Below are positions 1,410 through 64,000 of a stretch of DNA of 64,000 bases, one piece after another (position 1 is the first letter of the stretch; the number at the start of each line of letters is the position of its first letter). Source of the DNA: Akkermansia muciniphila (GTDB lineage Bacteria; Verrucomicrobiota; Verrucomicrobiia; Verrucomicrobiales; Akkermansiaceae); assembly GCA_945860285.1 (NCBI GenBank), contig CAMAQB010000005.1, positions 1-64,000 of the forward strand. Direction: 5' to 3'. The translations under genes and the position numbers were made by a program. Under the pieces are notes generated by a model. That model saw only the letters and a list, made by a program, of their open reading frames with translations. It had not been told where the DNA came from and did not search any database.

Positions 1410-2477
1410 TCACTGCGGGTCCGTGGGCGACACCTGCTTCGTTCGCTCGCTCTTCTGCACGGCATCCACGAGGAATTTGCTGATCGTTGCATAGACCGGC
1501 TGTGGGGTAACGAGAACATCGTGATGTCCCGCACCATGGACAGAGAGGAACTGTTTGGTGGCCGTGTTTGTAGCTGCAAACAGTCTTTTTGCATGATCGG
1601 GCGGCACAAAGGTGTCTATATCACCATGTCCGATGCACACAGGCATGGAGTCAAGTTTTGCCGCGGCATCAACGGGCCGGACGCGCACGGGATCGTACCC
1701 CGCACGCCATTTCACCAGATGACCGACGAGAAACCGTGCCGGAGCATGCAGCGGGCCGAAGATGCGACGGGCCTGGTTGGCGATGACGCCTTCGAGGTCG
1801 GCAAAGGATGACAGCTCGGCCACAGCGGCCCATTTCGTCTGGTCCGCCGCAGCGGCTTGCAGCGCGATGGCACCGCCTTGTGATATGCCCATCAGACACG
1901 CGGGTTGTGAATCGAACTTCATCGCTAAAGCAGCCGCTTCCAGTGCGGCGGACGGAAGTGTGGACTCATGGAAACCAAACGAAGCATACTGTGACGGATG
2001 GTCGCCATGGCCCGGTAGATCGGGGAGAATGCAGCGGAACCCGACCGCGCAAAGGCGCTCGGCGACAGGCAGATGATCTTCTTTTCTTCCCGTGTGCCCG
2101 TGAAGCAGGACAACGTTGCCGATGATCCGCCCCCACGGCTTGAGGCAGATGCCTTCAGTTTCGAGTTGTTTTCGCAAGAGGTTCCCTTTAGCCGCCGCCC
2201 CAGGATGATTGCTGGGTTCACAGACCAGACACGGCGTTCCTTTCCATGGCCCGGTCTCGACCACGAACGACCGGATCACCATCCCGTGCTCGACGGCGTT
2301 TGCGACAATTTCGCGGTGATAGTCCTGCAATGGCCTTCTTGGGGGACAAATCAAACGCGATGAAGCAATCCAGCATATCACAAAAAAACCCACGATGAAT
2401 GCCAACAGCAGCCTGAACAGGATTCGCCGGATGTTTCTCACTCGCTTCGTTTGCGCAGGCCGAGTCATGAGATTCAT
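1410..2477 (-). CDS. alpha/beta hydrolase, membrane-anchored
   Basis: A 355-residue protein with one N-terminal transmembrane segment (about residues 18-41) and an alpha/beta-hydrolase domain. The oxyanion-loop motif LLHGHTG is at 124-130, the nucleophile elbow GISQGG puts Ser at 199, the acid is probably Asp288 (HGDIDTFVP), and the base is His318 or His319 (GAGHHDV). This is a complete triad of the serine aminopeptidase/dienelactone hydrolase type. Substrate cannot be inferred. It stands alone, with 76 bp to the next gene on the same strand. Confidence 0.8.
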   Translation of the reverse strand: MNLMTRPAQTKRVRNIRRILFRLLLAFIVGFFVICWIASSRLICPPRRPLQDYHREIVANAVEHGMVIRSFVVETGPWKGTPCLVCEPSNHPGAAAKGNLLRKQLETEGICLKPWGRIIGNVVLLHGHTGRKEDHLPVAERLCAVGFRCILPDLPGHGDHPSQYASFGFHESTLPSAALEAAALAMKFDSQPACLMGISQGGAIALQAAAADQTKWAAVAELSSFADLEGVIANQARRIFGPLHAPARFLVGHLVKWRAGYDPVRVRPVDAAAKLDSMPVCIGHGDIDTFVPPDHAKRLFAATNTATKQFLSVHGAGHHDVLVTPQPVYATISKFLVDAVQKSERTKQVSPTDPQ

Positions 2478-2553
2478 GTAATGGCTTCACTGCCCAGACT
2501 GCCGGCAAGATTCATGGGGAAATGCCGGATTCGTCACAAAAAAAGCGAGCTTG

Positions 2554-3837
2554 TTACTTCGTTGGATAAGCAATGCCCATGGGGGTCCATCCCACACTGG
2601 CAATGCCGGCCTTGGCTGCAGGCGAAAGAATTCCGGTGTGGACCAGGACCTTTGTCGTGGCCCCGAGGTCGTCACGGTTGGCGAAGCCAGCGACCTGCTC
2701 GGTCCAGGTCACGTGATCGACAGGAGCGGGCACTTCCAGTGTGCCACTGGCGGTGGAGGCACCGGGCAGGCGGCCGATGATTTTCACGGCAGCATAGTCC
2801 GCAGCTCCGGAACGTTGGCGCTCGGCGAGGATCGCGATTGCGGAAACGAGGAAGTCCGCCTGCTCCGCATTTTCACAGGAATTGGCGAGACGAATCATCA
2901 GTCCGCGGCCTGCGGTTTTCGGCATGGCTTCCAGCGAAGTGACGATGCGGTGTCGACGCGTGGTGCTGAGACTCGCGTTCAGTTGGAACTCCTTGATGTC
3001 TTCGGCGGTCACCTTCATCGCGGTCAGTGATTTCTCATCGCGAAGTGCCAGCTCGGACTGGGTGAGCGCATAGGTATCATCGGGAATGCCAACCATGTTG
3101 GTCGCGGTGAGAGTGACTCCGGCCGACATGACCGCCGCACCGACCCGCAGCGGCAGTCCACCGGCGAAAAACGCCCAGGTGACCTTGTCCATCTCCTCCT
3201 GCAGCCGGACATTGTCCGAATACGGATCCACTCCGAGCTGTCGGGCGGTATCGAGTTTTGCTTTGTCAAATCCGGCCACGTTTTTCGCGGTGTTGCCGAC
3301 CCCCTTGCCTGCCTGCGCGGCCACGGTGCCGGCGTCTGTTTGATTTTCCTTCGCTTCATCGGCGCGTCGTTCGACTTTCTGCGCACCGCGGCTGATCGAA
3401 GAACCCACCTTGCTGAAAAAATGACCGACCGTTTTCGGGACCTGCTTCACCGAGTTCACCGGATCATGAACGATGTTTTTCACCGCATCGATGGGTTGCT
3501 CGAGGGAACGTTTCACCCCCTCGGCGAAAAGATCACTCTTGCTGGTTTCCACGAGTTTGCGGATCGCCTCGATTTCCACAATCCGCTGGCGCACCTGCGG
3601 AACGCCGGAGGCTTCAAAAATGCCGAAGTCCGAATCGATCTCGAAGTGAGCCATGAACCCGTCCGTAACCACCTGGTCCCTCACCCGGTGCGAGGGCCCG
3701 TGGAGAAGATCCGCCGGAAGCAGATCCGCCGCACGCAGCAGCACTCCCTGTTCGAAGACGGTAACCGCAGCGGGTTGAGCGGAGATATGCCCGATGACAA
3801 ACGCGGACACGAGGGGGAAAATCAACGGAGTTTTCAT
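2554..3837 (-). CDS. secreted hypothetical protein
   Basis: A 427-residue protein with a clear signal peptide (MKTPLIFPLVSAFVIGHISAQ). It has a charged helical middle section (about 95-205: repeated Val/Lys/Gln-rich helices followed by an Ala/Lys/Glu-rich coil), then a short hydrophobic stretch near 225-250 that could insert in a membrane. The remainder is mixed alpha/beta. I do not recognise the family. It is probably periplasmic or outer-membrane associated. No operon partner is evident. Confidence 0.65.
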   Translation of the reverse strand: MKTPLIFPLVSAFVIGHISAQPAAVTVFEQGVLLRAADLLPADLLHGPSHRVRDQVVTDGFMAHFEIDSDFGIFEASGVPQVRQRIVEIEAIRKLVETSKSDLFAEGVKRSLEQPIDAVKNIVHDPVNSVKQVPKTVGHFFSKVGSSISRGAQKVERRADEAKENQTDAGTVAAQAGKGVGNTAKNVAGFDKAKLDTARQLGVDPYSDNVRLQEEMDKVTWAFFAGGLPLRVGAAVMSAGVTLTATNMVGIPDDTYALTQSELALRDEKSLTAMKVTAEDIKEFQLNASLSTTRRHRIVTSLEAMPKTAGRGLMIRLANSCENAEQADFLVSAIAILAERQRSGAADYAAVKIIGRLPGASTASGTLEVPAPVDHVTWTEQVAGFANRDDLGATTKVLVHTGILSPAAKAGIASVGWTPMGIAYPTK

Positions 3838-3953
3838 GGCTGTGGAGATTTGATGTTTTCGAGAAGGCTTTGTTTGGTTTGTGAGCTGAGTTCGATCTTT
3901 CCTGGTAGAGGACGGTGCCGGAACTGGCTGGTGAACCCCAAATTAGATCGGGA

Positions 3954-4296
3954 TTAGTCCTGCGGCTGCTTTTTCGCCTGGGAAATCCGGGAGCGGGCGG
4001 CGGCTATAAACGCCTGTCCCTCCGGTGTCTCGCGGTAATACTTCTCTGCCGCTTCCCCCGCTGCCAGGCATTCCCGCAAGATTGGATGCATTTGTCCAGT
4101 CGGTTGCAAGGGCGCGCCCAAGGGCATCGGTAAGGGTTTTCCAGTGGTAGGCGATTCCATGGTATTGTAAGACGGCGTTAAGTGTGGATTCTTTCTTCGC
4201 AAGCAAACTTGTTGTCCCGTCGGGTGGGCTGTCAAGGCCGATCTGAAGGGAATGCTCCCGCTTCACGGAAATGAAAACCATTACGCCCGGTTGCAT
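3954..4296 (-). pseudogene. small hypothetical protein, apparently frameshifted
   Basis: Two overlapping minus-strand frames look like the two halves of one protein. The first half (from Met at 4296 or 4281) reads VFISVKREHSLQIGLDS...ALGRALATDW. The second, in another frame and ending at 3954, reads ILRECLAAGEAAEKYYRETP then a basic helical tail. Each half looks protein-like only on its side of about position 4095. I infer a single frameshift. The product is not recognised. It sits in a run of damaged genes. Confidence 0.4.
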
Positions 4297-4416
4297 GTTA
4301 GGATTTTTCTTTGGGGGCTTGATGACCGTGGATAGAAAAAAATCTCTCAGGAAAACCCGTGCAGGCTCTGTCAATCTGCTGCGAGCTTGTCAATCAATGG
4401 CCGCGCGTTGTCTGCC

Positions 4417-5496
4417 CTATTTCTGAACAGAACCTCTCCCAGCCAGCGATTCAACCACATAACCCATCCCACAGACCAACTCCGCAAACGGCCCAAAGTC
4501 CATCCTGTCCGGGGTGTCGGTGAGTTCGTGATAGTGATCCGACCGCAGGAAAGCCGTGTCCGTAACGCAGAACGCCGGATATCGCGCGCGGCCATAGGAC
4601 CAGTCATCCGACCAGGCCACCGTTTTGTGCACATACGGCAGAGTCAATGTCCGCACTGCCATCTCAGATGAGTGGGCGGCAAATTCCGTCGTGCATTTCC
4701 GCGCCAATGAGCCACCCGAAGGCACGGTCAGGAATGCCACATAGTCCGTGCGATCCGGCAAGCCAACGAAAGCAGGAATCGGTCCGAGACCGCCCCGTCG
4801 TTTGGTGCGGGGCTGCGCCGATTAGCAGCCCACTGCGTCGAAGGCAATCACGGCGCGAATGTTTTCGTGTGCGGCCCTGCTGCGCTGCGCACTGACATGA
4901 CTGCCCATTGCATCGGGCTTCTGATAAAAGGGCGGCTCCTCGTTCACCCAGAAGCAGAATCGCACAGTACGCGGCAGAGGATGACCGGCCATGCGCCTTG
5001 CAATGGCCAGCACGGCCGCTACTCCACTGGCATTGTCGTTGGCCCCGGGAGTGCCGCGGTGTTCGGGCTTGACGTTGTCATGATCATGCCAGCCATCGAA
5101 TGCCGCGCGCGAATCGTAGTGCGCCCCCACAATGATGATCTCCTCCGACCGGCTCGTTCCCGGAAGCTCCGCAATGACGTTGTGCACGGTCTGCGTCGCG
5201 CACTGAAAACGCCGGCCATCGACATGGATCAACTCCGGACGGGGGAGGTAACCTCACGAGGTCAGTTGTCGCTCGATCGATGTCGCCGCACGATGCAAGC
5301 CCGCCGGGCGGTAGCAATTGCGTTCACCAATGTGCTCGGAAAGCACCTTCACGTTGTGCCGCAACTCCCCCGCCAATGCCCTAATTACTGCGGCATGATT
5401 CAATCCAGGCGACGGAGCACGAAAATGACTGACGCAGCCCGAAAGGACAACAGAAGCGAGCAAGACAAGCGAAGCCTTCGTAACTGATGCGGTCAT
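4417..5496 (-). pseudogene. M28-family metallopeptidase lipoprotein with two premature stops
   Basis: One continuous minus-strand frame of 359 codons encodes a lipoprotein signal peptide (LVLLASVVLSGC) followed by an M28 aminopeptidase domain. The zinc ligands and catalytic residues are visible: GAHYDS (His, Asp), GANDNASG (Asp), NEEPPF (Glu-Glu) and SDHYHELTDTPDRMDF (His). Two in-frame stops interrupt it: a TGA at 5254-5256 and a TAA at 4822-4824. The latter sits where related enzymes have a Tyr (G[YC]YS). No frameshift is needed to read through. Length matches the family (about 340-360). I call it a pseudogene by nonsense mutation. Confidence 0.8.
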
Positions 5497-6111
5497 CACA
5501 GCGGAAGTTAGCCTTGTCGACCAGCCAAAATCGGCAACAGAGCGCTCACTGTGACTGTTATCGCAGGCGTCGCTGCCATCACCGGCCCCGGCGAGCCCAA
5601 ACAAATCTTCGTCCGCATCGAGGTGGAATAAGTTCGCAGTCCATAATGCCTCCCGCATGGAGTATCGTGGGGAAGCTACGAAAATGTCACCTGGATCGCC
5701 GAATGTGCGTGAATCCTCCGTAGCAACATCCAGGGTGCAACGAAAGACGAAGATGCGCAATGATCCACAAAGCCAGAGTCGTCTGTTTTGAAGTACGCGC
5801 CAAGCAAGGCAATGACGCCCACCAGGGAAACCCAGCTTCGTGGAGCTTGCAGCCGCCTGACTTTCTCTCCCACTTACGAACCGAGCGTGCTTTGCGTTCT
5901 TGCCGGACTGCTCAAACTCGATGGATGAAATTGATCGACGCATTCGTCTGGGGTGGCCACGGGTTGCGACCGGTGGTCGTTGATGGCGAGCACGCGACAG
6001 TCCCTGGCCATTCATCACTGACCAATCGAAATTGACTTCACGACCTGGTCCTCCTAAAACGTCGTATGTCATGGACTCCCATTTCAACAACGAGCGATTT
6101 CCCCTACCGAT
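5497..6111. other. 615-bp stretch without an intact gene
   Basis: No convincing complete gene is present. On the plus strand, codons ending at about 5630 read like the end of a beta-rich secreted protein (LTVTVIAGVAAITGPGEP). On the minus strand, 5676-5873 encodes a short hydrophobic stretch (WVSLVGVIALLGAYFK). Both are likely remnants. The stretch lies between two nonsense-disrupted genes, which fits local decay. Confidence 0.4.
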
Positions 6112-58643: not shown

Positions 58644-61220
58644 ATGGGACTCGATAAAATGACACAAAAACTCCAGGAGGCATTGCAACAGGCTCAGCGG
58701 CTGGCATCCAAGTCCAGCCATGCGGAGCTGAAAAGTGCCCACGTCTTGCAAAGTCTGCTCGAACAGGAAGGAGGAATCCTCATGCCCATTTTGCAAAAAG
58801 CCGGAACCGACATTCCACGTCTCAGGAATTCCGTCGCCGACAACCTCGCCGCCGAACCACGTGTTCAAGGTTCCACCTCGCAACCTCAGCTGAGTTACGG
58901 CTTGCGGGCCACTCTGGATGCGGCAGACAACGCCCGCGAATCCCTTGGCGACGACTTTCTCAGCGTCGAGCATTTTCTCCTCGGTGCGCTGAAGTCCGAC
59001 TCCCCCGCTGGCAAGTTGCTCAAGGAAGTCGGCATGACCGAGGCCAAGGCCCGCGAGGCGATCAAGTCCGTGCGCGGCAGCCAGAAAGTCAGCGATGAAA
59101 ACCCCGAGGGCAAATACCAGACTTTGGAAAAATACGGCACGGATCTAACAGCACGGGCCCGTGAAGGCAAGATCGATCCGGTCATCGGTCGCGACAATGA
59201 AATCCGGCGGGTGATGCAGGTGTTGTCGCGTCGTACTAAAAACAACCCCGTGCTCATCGGCGAACCCGGTGTCGGCAAAACCGCGATCGTGGAAGGTCTG
59301 GCCCGGCGCATCGTGTCGGGCGACGTACCGGATTCGATGAAAAAAAAACGGATCATCACCCTCGATCTGGGTGGCATGCTGGCCGGAGCCAAGTATCGGG
59401 GTGAATTCGAGGACAGACTGAAAGCGTTCCTGAAGGAGGTGACCGAATCCGCCGGACAGATCATTCTTTTCATCGATGAGCTGCACACCATCGTCGGCGC
59501 GGGAGCCAGCGAGGGCGCAGTCGATGCCTCGAATTTGCTCAAACCCCAACTTGCCCGCGGCGAACTGTCCACCATCGGCGCGACGACTTTGGATGAATAC
59601 CGCAAGCACATCGAGAAAGATGCCGCGCTCGAACGAAGATTCCAGCCGGTGTTGGTTGGGGAACCCTCGGCGGAGGACACCATAGCGATCCTGCGCGGAT
59701 TGAAAGAGCGCTACGAAGTGCATCATGGCGTGCGCATCCAGGACGGCGCGCTGGTGGCCGCCGCCATGCTTTCCGACCGCTACATTTCCGATCGATTTCT
59801 TCCTGACAAAGCCGTGGATCTCATCGACGAGGCCGCGTCTCGTCTGAAAATCGAACTGGATTCCATGCCCACGGAGATCGATCAGATCGAACGCCAAGTC
59901 CTGCAACTGGAGATGGAGAAAAAAGCGCTGGAAAAAGAAACCGACAAGGCATCGGCCGCGAGACTGGACAAGGTCCGCGAGGAGCAATCCAACCTGAAGG
60001 AACAAAGCTCCGCGCTGATCGCGCAGTGGCGCAATGAAAAATCCGTGATCGATGAAGTTCGCAGCGCACAGGGAAAAATCGAGACTCTCAAAACGCAGGC
60101 CGAGCAGGCGCAGCGAATCGGCAACCTGACCCGTGCCTCGGAGATCACCTATGGCGAATTGCCCGGAGTGCAAAAAGAATTGGAGGCGGCAAAGCAGAAG
60201 CTGGCGAACTATCAATCGAACGGCGGCATCCTCAAGGAAGAGGTGACCGAGGACGACATCGCCCGGGTTGTGTCCGCATGGACGGGCATCCCGGTCAACC
60301 GCCTGCAGGAAGGTGAGCGGGCCAAACTCCTGCAAATGGAAACGCGACTCGGCGAACGCGTGATCGGCCAGAAAAAGGCCATCACTGCCGTCTCCCATGC
60401 GGTCCGGCGGGCGCGATCGGGTCTTCAGGATGAAAACCGTCCGGTCGGTTCTTTTTTGTTTCTCGGTCCCACCGGTGTGGGAAAGACCGAACTATCGAAA
60501 GCGCTCGCGGAGTTTCTCTTTGATGACGAAAGCGCGATGATCCGACTCGACATGTCGGAGTACATGGAAAAGCACAGCGTTGCCCGGCTGATCGGGGCAC
60601 CGCCGGGATACGTTGGCTATGAAGAAGGCGGACAACTCAGCGAACGGGTGCGCCGCAAACCTTACAGCGTGATTTTGTTCGACGAGGTGGAGAAGGCTCA
60701 TGGCGATGTCTTCAACGTATTGTTGCAGGTTCTCGATGACGGACGTATCACCGACGGCCAGGGGCGAACCGTGGATTTCCGCAATACCGTGATCATCCTC
60801 ACCTCCAACATCGGCTCGCAATTCATTCTGCACGAGGAGAATTCCGAGCAACGGGAAGCCAAAGTGATGGAAGCGCTGAGGGCTCATTTTCGGCCCGAGT
60901 TTCTCAACCGCATTGATGAAATCATCATCTTTGACCGTCTTGATCGCAGCGAGATCGGCAGCATCGTGGAGTTGCAGCTCACCCGGCTTCGCCAGCGCCT
61001 CGCGAAACAGGGGCTGGCGCTGGCACTGACACCGCAGGCGAAGGATTTCCTCGCCAACCAAGGCTACGATCCCACCTACGGGGCCCGACCTTTGAAACGT
61101 GCAATCCAACACCACCTGCTCGACACTCTCAGCATCGACGTGTTGGACGGAAAATTCGTGGAAGGCGATGTCATTGAAGTCGGCGTGTCAAATGGCGCGC
61201 TTGAATTCCACAAATCCTGA
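58644..61220 (+). CDS. clpB: ClpB disaggregase
   Basis: An 858-residue Hsp100 protein. Clp_N domain (1-145), NBD1 with [17 protein letters not shown] and [24 protein letters not shown], the long coiled M-domain (about 405-520) that marks ClpB, NBD2 with [17 protein letters not shown] and [13 protein letters not shown]. The ClpP-docking LGF loop of ClpC is absent. Works with DnaK/DnaJ (not in the window) to dissolve aggregates after heat stress. Confidence 0.96.
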
Positions 61221-61236
61221 AACGCGGAGACTGTCG

Positions 61237-62235
61237 TTACTTTTTCGCCTGATCCAACAGCGATTGGCTGATCTGGCGGAGTTCCTCCACGGGTATGGCA
61301 TAGCTTTCCGCGCGGTTGGCGCGGGCGATGTTCATGCCAATGCATTTGCCGTCGAGATCCAGAAGCGGCCCTCCCACGGTCTTGCTGGTGCCGCCGATGT
61401 CGTGTTGAATGACACGTGGAAATCCACTGCGCCTTTTGGAGACATCGCCGCTCATGGCATCGTTGCGGGATTCTTCCGCTCCGAACGTATCGGCCCGCCC
61501 CATCAGTTCCACCAGAGTCTTTTGATCAACGCCATCGCGCTGGTATCCGACCTCGATTTTTTCGCCCACGCGACGATCTTTCATGAACTCGACCAAGTCC
61601 TCACGCTTGTGAATCTCCCGGTCGCCCACGCTGATGATCTTGTCGCCGTCCCGAATCCCCGCCTTGTAGGCTCCGCTGATTTCCGGAACTTTATCGGCAA
61701 CAATGCCTGATTTTTCCTCCTTGATTTCCACACCGAGAACTGCCCCGCCTTCGGCAAGAATCTCGCGGGAGTTGGCACTGACCACTCCGATCATCGGCCG
61801 GCGTTCCGTGCGGCTGGTCGCCCCGTTGGCAACCACCCACGAGCCCTGGCCGATATCGCTGCTGTCGGCATAGACCACAGGTTTCAGCCCACCCGCCTCA
61901 ATTTTCAAAAGGCAAACGTCCCATCGGGTCTTCTGAGCGGAAATCTCCACGGTGTCGTACAACTCACCACCCACCCGGATGCTCAGCGCGCCGGCGTTTT
62001 TGAGTTCGCTCCACTTGCCCAGGATGTATCCATCCTCGGTGATCACGATGCCGTAGCCGATTTCTTTCTTGCCGTCGTAAACCACCGCGCTGAATTCCTG
62101 CAGCGACTGGTTGGCCCGGGTGACCACGGCGTGCATCAGCGAGCCATTGGTGCGATAATCCGATTCCAGAGATTCGAAGGCCCGCGCTGTTGCAGAGCAG
62201 GCGACGATCATCATGATAGCCGTTTTCCATTTCAT
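61237..62235 (-). CDS. HtrA-like pseudoprotease with inserted PDZ domain
   Basis: A 332-residue secreted protein (signal 1-19) built on the HtrA/trypsin fold but with key residues changed. The His motif region reads ITEDGYILGKWSEL (family TAAHV or TNAHVV replaced), Asp106 is kept (RWDVCLLKI), and the Ser motif reads TVGGPLLDLDGKCIGM, with Val287 where GNSGGP has Ser. A PDZ domain (about 165-245, SGAYKAGIRDGDKIISVGD) sits between the Asp and Ser motifs, rather than after the protease domain. Likely non-catalytic. Next to an intact HtrA gene. Confidence 0.8.
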   Translation of the reverse strand: MKWKTAIMMIVACSATARAFESLESDYRTNGSLMHAVVTRANQSLQEFSAVVYDGKKEIGYGIVITEDGYILGKWSELKNAGALSIRVGGELYDTVEISAQKTRWDVCLLKIEAGGLKPVVYADSSDIGQGSWVVANGATSRTERRPMIGVVSANSREILAEGGAVLGVEIKEEKSGIVADKVPEISGAYKAGIRDGDKIISVGDREIHKREDLVEFMKDRRVGEKIEVGYQRDGVDQKTLVELMGRADTFGAEESRNDAMSGDVSKRRSGFPRVIQHDIGGTSKTVGGPLLDLDGKCIGMNIARANRAESYAIPVEELRQISQSLLDQAKK

Positions 62236-62256
62236 AAAATCCAATCAATCAACAGG

Positions 62257-63237
62257 TCATTTTTCCCCAAGACGCACCGTGATTTCCTTCTCCTTGCCAT
62301 TGCGAACGATGACAAGCATCAGTTTTTCATCAGCAGCCTTCTCCTTGAGCAATTTCTGCAAGTTTTCCTTGTTGCTGATTGCAGCGCCATCGATCTTGAC
62401 AATGACATCGCCCTCCTTGATCCCGGCGGCCTCGGCCGGAGAGTCACGGCCGACCTTGGTCACACGCAACTTGCCCTCCGCCGTTTCCTCGGTCCCCACG
62501 CCCAGAAATCCACTGCCCTTTTTGGGCTTTTTCGCAAATGGCCCCTCGCCGATGAATTCTCCTTTCAACATCTCATCCCAGTGGCGCAGGAATTCGCGCA
62601 TTGGCACATGCATGTTCTGCTGGAGATTTGCACCGACCCGTGAATGAATGCCAATCAGGCGGCCTCGCACGTCAAACAACGGACCACCGGAATCCCCGCC
62701 GATGAGAGTGCAGTCACTCTGCCAAGTGGAGTCCGCGATCTTGACAAGCCGACCGATCCGGACACCCGCGCCGCGCTCCTTGTCATAACCTCCCGAATGG
62801 CCCAGGGAAAATACCCAGTCGCCCAGTTTGGTCAAATCGGCGCGATCCACCTCGACAAAAGGATAGGGTCCTTTTTCGGAAAGGCGGGCCATTGCGCAAT
62901 CGGTCTCGGAGTCCAGCCCCAGTGACTCGCACTTGATCTTCCTGCCGTCGGCGAGAATGGCCGTGATGTCCTTGCCAACTCCACCGGTCACATGCGCTGC
63001 TGTCAGGATCAGGCCATCGGCGGAAATGATCACACCGCTGCCCGACCCCTGCGCCAGTTCGAGACAGACGGTGGCATTACGCGCCGCCGGCAGCGAGCTT
63101 TTCAACGCCGCTTCGATCGCACGCATGTCGTCCGAACCGACGGGTAATTTTTTGTCGTTGACGCTCAGGCGATTGGCATCCTGGGAAAATGCGCTAATCA
63201 TCAATCCCAGCAATGAGAGTGCCACGGTGGTCTTCAT
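62257..63237 (-). CDS. S1C (HtrA/DegP-like) serine protease with PDZ domain
   Basis: A 326-residue periplasmic protease. Signal peptide 1-18; triad His82 (LTAAHV), Asp113 (DSETDCAMARL), Ser183 (GGDSGGPLFD); single PDZ domain at about 245-322 (DSPAEAAGIKEGDVIVKIDG). Degrades misfolded envelope proteins. Start at Met 63237; an upstream 35-codon extension lacks a signal peptide. Upstream of, and co-directional with, the pseudoprotease gene (21 bp gap), so they are probably co-transcribed. Confidence 0.93.
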   Translation of the reverse strand: MKTTVALSLLGLMISAFSQDANRLSVNDKKLPVGSDDMRAIEAALKSSLPAARNATVCLELAQGSGSGVIISADGLILTAAHVTGGVGKDITAILADGRKIKCESLGLDSETDCAMARLSEKGPYPFVEVDRADLTKLGDWVFSLGHSGGYDKERGAGVRIGRLVKIADSTWQSDCTLIGGDSGGPLFDVRGRLIGIHSRVGANLQQNMHVPMREFLRHWDEMLKGEFIGEGPFAKKPKKGSGFLGVGTEETAEGKLRVTKVGRDSPAEAAGIKEGDVIVKIDGAAISNKENLQKLLKEKAADEKLMLVIVRNGKEKEITVRLGEK

Positions 63238-63313: not shown

Positions 63314-64000
63314 TCAGCCGCCGCCCTGCAGGATGTCGTCAAGCACCTCCATGCAGCGGATGTTTTGCGGCATGGTGCCGACGGAAATGCGCACCCATTC
63401 GGGTAGTTTGTAACTGCTCATGGCGCGAAGGATGATTCCTCGTTTGAGCATTTTCCGGAACAGATCATCCCCATCGCCGACCTTGACGAGGACGAAATTG
63501 GCGAAGCTCGGCACGTATTCCATGCCACGATCCCGGAAGGCCTTTTGGAAATAGTCCAGTCCCTCCGCATTCACCGTCTTGGTCATGGTGATGTGCTCCT
63601 CATCGCCCAATGCCGCAAGGGCTCCGGCCTGGGCGATCGAGTTGACATTGAAGGGCTGCCTGGCCTTTTGCAGGATGTCGATCAATGATTTCGGCCCCAG
63701 TCCGTAACCCACCCGCAACGCGGCTAGCCCGTGGATTTTCGAAAAAGTGCGCAAAATGCAGACATTCCTCCCCTCCCGGACGTATTTCAATGTATCCGGC
63801 GCATCGTCCAGAAACTCATGATAGGCTTCATCAAACACCGCGACCACATGATCCGGTAGGCGGTCCATGAAACGGTCCAACGCCGCCTGATCCACCATCG
63901 TGCCCGTGGGGTTGTTCGGATTGGCGATGAACACCAGCCGGGTCTCGGGACCAACCGCTGCCGCCATGGCCTCGAGGTCATGAATGAACCCGGGGTCGGC
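63314..64000 (-). CDS. hisC: histidinol-phosphate aminotransferase, C-terminal part (gene runs off window)
   Basis: About 228 residues of a class I/II aminotransferase, open to the window edge on the N-terminal side. FIANPNNPTGTMVD, VVAVFDEAYHEFLDD (PLP-contacting Asp/Tyr), and ILRTFSKIHGLAALRVGYGLG with the catalytic Lys. The C-terminus (FANFVLVKVGDGDDLFRKMLKRGIILRAM...WVRISVGTMPQN) is characteristic of HisC. Catalyses the seventh step of histidine synthesis; a related PLP aminotransferase is possible. Confidence 0.9.
   Translation of the reverse strand, partial: ADPGFIHDLEAMAAAVGPETRLVFIANPNNPTGTMVDQAALDRFMDRLPDHVVAVFDEAYHEFLDDAPDTLKYVREGRNVCILRTFSKIHGLAALRVGYGLGPKSLIDILQKARQPFNVNSIAQAGALAALGDEEHITMTKTVNAEGLDYFQKAFRDRGMEYVPSFANFVLVKVGDGDDLFRKMLKRGIILRAMSSYKLPEWVRISVGTMPQNIRCMEVLDDILQGGG

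Follow-up and report, generated by a model that had tools for sequence, protein, structure and literature searches.

In the Verrucomicrobiales, the gene for the stress protease HtrA nearly always comes together with, or is fused to, a second copy that is catalytically dead and has a PDZ domain inside one of its loops. We describe here one such pair from Akkermansia muciniphila, where the window, i.e. the whole stretch of 64,000 nucleotides that was analysed, has two genes at positions 61237-63237, both on the minus strand, with the HtrA upstream of the pseudo-HtrA. The arrangement suggests one enzyme with two subunits, of which one senses and the other cuts. A gene encoding a ClpB-type disaggregase (window positions 58644-61220, plus strand) converges on the 3' end of the pair, and it is not generally conserved among the relatives.

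The product of the upstream gene was predicted to be an intact HtrA, and the sequence bears this out. It has a signal peptide, a protease domain with an intact His-Asp-Ser triad and one C-terminal PDZ, and thus shows the features of the S1C family that we searched for (triad, trypsin fold, PDZ located C-terminally). Its score against the NCBIfam profile TIGR02037 (148.8) is below the cut-off of 416.2, and we therefore regard it as a divergent subfamily of HtrA/Do. The longer open reading frame starts with a TTG at 63342; we took the ATG at 63237 as the true start. The features of this gene are the following.

62257-63237, minus strand: active HtrA partner, 326 aa from the ATG at 63237
62992-62994, minus strand: catalytic His (TAAHV)
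62899-62901, minus strand: catalytic Asp
62689-62691, minus strand: catalytic Ser (GGDSGGP)
62713-62754, minus strand: trimmed loop L3 segment, 14 residues, GRLVKIADSTWQSD

The downstream gene encodes an HtrA-fold pseudo-protease and no HtrA protease. Its chain runs from a signal peptide (MKWKTAIMMIVACSATARA) through barrel 1 and the start of barrel 2 to a PDZ, after which comes the rest of barrel 2. Residue numbers are counted from the TTG at 62244, while the ATG at 62235 is taken as the true start.

61237-62235, minus strand: pseudo-HtrA, 332 aa from the ATG at 62235 (TTG start of the open reading frame at 62244)
62008-62016, minus strand: K77-W78-S79, with Ser79 in place of the catalytic His, in a conserved K-x-S-E motif
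61918-61920, minus strand: retained Asp109
61765-61767, minus strand: Arg160, directly before the PDZ insertion
61498-61743, minus strand: PDZ, inserted at the putative loop L3 position
61408-61467, minus strand: conserved post-PDZ segment RNDxMSGxxSxRRxGFPxVxQHD, which re-enters barrel 2
61375-61377, minus strand: Val290, at the catalytic Ser position
61312-61314, minus strand: Arg311, in the loop that follows strand IGMNIA (the L2 position in the alignment)

Ungapped alignment with active HtrAs places Ser79 at the position of the catalytic His (GYILGKWSEL against GLILTAAHVT) and Val290 at that of the catalytic Ser (KTVGGPLLD against GDSGGPLFD), and Asp109 is kept. The catalytic triad that defines HtrA/Do (S1C) is therefore absent, and the loss of His and of Ser (to Val) that the original prediction had read from the gene is confirmed. 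The same is true of its unusual topology, in which the PDZ lies between the Asp and Ser motifs, unlike in ordinary HtrA. Pfam identifies Trypsin_2 at residues 63-157 and PDZ_2 at 169-247 (E 1.8e-13), followed by the remainder of barrel 2, so that the PDZ is not C-terminal to the protease domain and lies inside barrel 2, apparently at L3. The AlphaFold2 model of the single chain, built with 79 orthologues (pLDDT 89.4, pTM 0.82), likewise puts the PDZ between strands of barrel 2, and no Ser is supplied from elsewhere. Pfam, the model and Foldseek all agree on the two-barrel trypsin-like fold. The top Foldseek matches of the model are all HtrAs, with TMq of at most 0.40, whereas the active partner folded in the same way as a control gave TM of 0.48-0.53 with far stronger E-values. 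The lower scores are consistent with an altered chain order and are not decisive, because the orientation of the PDZ also lowers TM. Within the genome, the nearest relatives of the internal PDZ are the PDZs of the partners.

The loss of the triad is conserved. We drew relatives from 57 near genomes, from 80 named genome loci, nearly all of Verrucomicrobiales (Akkermansiaceae, Verrucomicrobiaceae, Rubritaleaceae), and from a sample of 289 genomes of the phylum; the genome scan used the near-set alignment (A2). None of the 158 distinct pseudo-HtrAs has a full triad. The His position is occupied by Ser in 152 and by His in none, and the K-x-S-E motif that stands in for the His motif has its Lys in 154 and its Ser in 152. 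The Asp is kept in 156. The Ser position is variable (V in 52, M in 43, C in 26, I in 11, T in 11, S in 2, and others), and two arginines are nearly invariant, Arg160 (156/158) and Arg311 (157/158). In one alignment of clade A, all 79 sequences have both Trypsin_2 and PDZ_2. The His-Asp-Ser triad is intact in each of the 154 HtrA partners that we identified, and each also has an Asp before the Ser. Full-length pseudo-HtrAs occur in 207 of 280 genomes of Verrucomicrobiales, representing 36 of 41 genera. Outside this order, the phylum sample has them in only two genomes, both from one family, and a tblastn search of plasmids returned no match. Between close orthologues of the pseudo-HtrA dN/dS is about 0.08-0.17, with dS near saturation, which indicates a gene that is maintained under purifying selection rather than decaying. 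A decaying copy or a chance occurrence is ruled out by this ratio of about 0.1 together with the 158 homologues with a dead triad.

The pairing is equally regular. In 140 pairs the genes are adjacent on the same strand, with the pseudo-HtrA after the HtrA and a gap of -367 to +62 bp (median -11 bp), and in 14 others they are fused into open reading frames in the same order. Four pseudo-HtrAs could not be placed automatically. One is at a contig end (L166). The second (L198, 589-2460, minus strand) is a reverse-order fusion, with the dead half first, in a genome from outside the order (family f38). In the third (L077), two HtrA halves, both apparently dead, make up a gene (2169-3842) that lies directly upstream of a fused HtrA-pseudo-HtrA gene (3848-5980). 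The last (L057, on G054:C46) has no adjacent partner and is a rare case in which both genes are kept on different contigs, the partner being at G054:C38:18691. We also looked for conserved neighbours as a clue to the substrate and found none besides the partner.

Co-occurrence follows the same trend. When the partner subfamily is defined at E <= 1e-60 (ordinary HtrAs start after a gap, at 1e-52), it is present in the identical 30 of 289 Verrucomicrobiota genomes as the pseudo-HtrA. In genus g3, the genomes that miss one member miss both, and several lack the whole module. Tree distances of pseudo-HtrAs and partners are correlated (r 0.84, against a permutation maximum of 0.18), and 93 of 93 nearest neighbours fall in the same clade in both trees. 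Clade A forms a single group in both trees, which mirror one another, and hence the pairs were duplicated as units; the mirroring partly reflects shared species history. The genome of the window has a second pair, of clade B (G000, contig C140, 669-2841, locus L013), whose pseudo-HtrA (427 aa) is extended at the C-terminus. Linkage, fusion and co-occurrence amount to a functional tie, from which physical contact would be a further step. It is very probable that the pseudo-HtrA serves its partner HtrA in some way. The original prediction proposed a regulatory or substrate-presenting partner: its first half, the partnership, is strongly supported, since the genes are adjacent, can be fused in either order, are present or absent together and have mirrored trees, and between the two roles we lean towards regulation.

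This preference comes from the site of the insertion together with a change in the partner, i.e. from the PDZ being placed in what appears to be loop L3 and from the partner's own L3 being trimmed. When the pseudo-HtrA is aligned with DegQ (6z05), its residues 61-159 match 64-163 and its residues 277-334 match 174-236. The loop between GIISALN and NFIQTD has about 10 residues in DegQ and 117, PDZ included, in the pseudo-HtrA. Judging by this alignment, the insertion point would correspond to loop L3, which in DegS spans residues 176-189 (PMC11642142), and Arg160 probably occupies the position of the L3 arginine of HtrA, DegS Arg178 (PMC11642142). In DegS, a ligand bound to the PDZ moves L3, whose Arg178 then touches the LD' loop of the subunit next to it, and activation through L3 acts both in cis and in trans (PMC11642142). 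Of the 154 partners, 152 have an L3 segment of 13-15 residues, counted between the same pair of strands, against 21 and 25 residues in the two measurable ordinary HtrAs of the window's genome and 122-153 residues in the pseudo-HtrAs. The two proteins are thus complementary: the active one has a trimmed L3, and the dead one has an arginine plus a PDZ in L3. What is new here is the insertion of the PDZ in L3, together with the trimmed L3 of the active partner, on which the original prediction had not remarked. The partners have a C-terminal PDZ, apart from those of genus g3 and a small number of others. In the complete genomes of this genus (about 2.7-3.5 Mb), which have two pairs, the partners of one pair measure 246-254 aa and have no PDZ (L181-L191), while their pseudo-HtrAs keep theirs, which is the sole PDZ of that pair. 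Most active partners keep their own PDZ, and only in genus g3 is the PDZ of the pseudo-HtrA the one possible sensor.

On balance, we find it probable that the pseudo-HtrA is a dedicated, non-catalytic regulatory partner subunit that works through L3 on the active HtrA. In the model that we propose, the two proteins would be halves of one exported protease module, probably located in the periplasm, in which the upstream HtrA cuts. They would co-assemble as a trimer or dimer in which the two related protease folds are mixed, and the internal PDZ of the pseudo-HtrA would bind a peptide or the terminus of a misfolded protein. Once bound, it would shift L3 and Arg160 of the pseudo-HtrA against the activation loops of the partner and switch it on; within the same model, binding by the PDZ might alternatively dock the substrate to the partner. 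The trans half of the PDZ-L3-LD' route of DegS would in this way have been made permanent, with the pseudo-HtrA sensing and the HtrA cutting. The physical complex, the allostery, the sensing of peptides and the direction of regulation are all what we infer from the conserved pairing and the altered loops. A stricter version can only be put forward tentatively: an obligate hetero-oligomer with a split sensor, where the active subunit has lost its extended L3 (and, in one genus, also its PDZ) and is switched in trans by a dead subunit whose PDZ is wired into L3.

Other roles for a dead partner were considered. It could be a scaffold, whose protease domain sets the oligomeric state of the pair (trimer or cage) and relays no ligand signal. 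The inactive protease domain of plant Deg7, reported to drive trimerisation (PMC3473262), is a precedent for this, and fused forms also occur among our pairs. Yet a pure scaffold has no need for a PDZ as well conserved as this one (PDZ_2 in 79/79) in the signal loop, nor does it account for the trimmed L3 of the partner, and we think it fairly unlikely. The insertion in L3 and the trimming are equally unexplained by a role as substrate adaptor or chaperone, in which the pseudo-HtrA binds clients with its PDZ and passes them to the HtrA without allosteric switching. Client binding could be delegated in this way in genus g3, where the partner lacks a PDZ, but most partners have kept their own, which makes a simple adaptor quite unlikely. 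We see still less reason to regard the pseudo-HtrA as an inhibitor or substrate of its partner, a decoy that holds the protease off until it is removed: the equal gene pairing would suit an inhibitor, as would the bulky V, M or I residues that block the active site, but a fusion of inhibitor and enzyme, seen in both orders, would lock the enzyme, and the old catalytic site has a conserved surface instead of one that is free to vary. Finally, it is hardly credible that the near-invariant Lys77-Ser79-Asp109 cluster at the former His/Asp site (154, 152 and 156 of 158) makes a differently built enzyme. Its Lys and Ser lie on the same turn with a spacing of two residues, which is not how known Ser/Lys dyads are built, the former nucleophile position is variable, and such an enzyme would not explain why an active HtrA partner is always there.

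A regulatory pseudo-HtrA would be of general interest. In homo-oligomeric HtrAs each subunit both senses and cuts, which makes it difficult to work out how PDZ binding is passed on to the active site, be it in cis or in trans. Evolution appears to have split these two tasks onto different proteins in hundreds of genomes, where the genes are separate, fused or fused in reverse order. Should the model be right, mutations in one subunit at a time would give a direct test of trans activation through L3, and a function could be given to a widespread pair of the Verrucomicrobiales, the order that includes the Akkermansiaceae.

In the open-access literature we found no description of a PDZ inserted in the HtrA fold, nor of this pair in Verrucomicrobiales. 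The closest precedents of a two-part HtrA are MamE/MamO and plant Deg7. As in our pairs, an active HtrA (MamE) goes with a dead protein of HtrA fold (MamO) encoded in the same genome; MamE needs MamO for its proteolysis, and these pseudoproteases arose from HtrA paralogues (PMC4794232). However, MamO has Thr for the catalytic Ser, keeps the His and Asp, and binds metal; it activates through a C-terminal TauE membrane domain, and no physical contact with MamE was found (PMC4794232). The pseudo-HtrA has no TauE-like membrane domain, as it ends with barrel 2 and a helix, and it scores 15.5 bits against the MamO model (cut-off 800). Moreover, MamO is confined to magnetotactic bacteria, no PDZ is described inside its protease fold, and it does not form an adjacent or fused obligate pair of the kind seen here. 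Deg7 resembles the fused forms in that it has active and degenerate HtrA protease domains in one polypeptide, but the order of its domains is PD-PDZ-PDZ-PD(inactive)-PDZ-PDZ, with no PDZ within a protease domain (PMC3473262). The pair is thus not a twin HtrA of the Deg7 type, since the window has two separate genes and, in the fused relatives, the dead domain encloses the PDZ. Arabidopsis Deg5/Deg8 is similar to the pairs of genus g3, in that a PDZ-less HtrA works with a PDZ-bearing one, but both have intact triads and the canonical domain order, with no inserted PDZ (PMC3640471). Finally, DegS, AlgW and DegP (Do family, TIGR02037) share with the window pair the trypsin fold plus PDZ, and provide the signalling route from the PDZ through L3 to LD' of the next subunit (PMC11642142). 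They form homo-oligomers whose subunits keep an intact triad and have the PDZ at the C-terminus, whereas the window pair has a PDZ in L3 and would have this signalling route split over two proteins.
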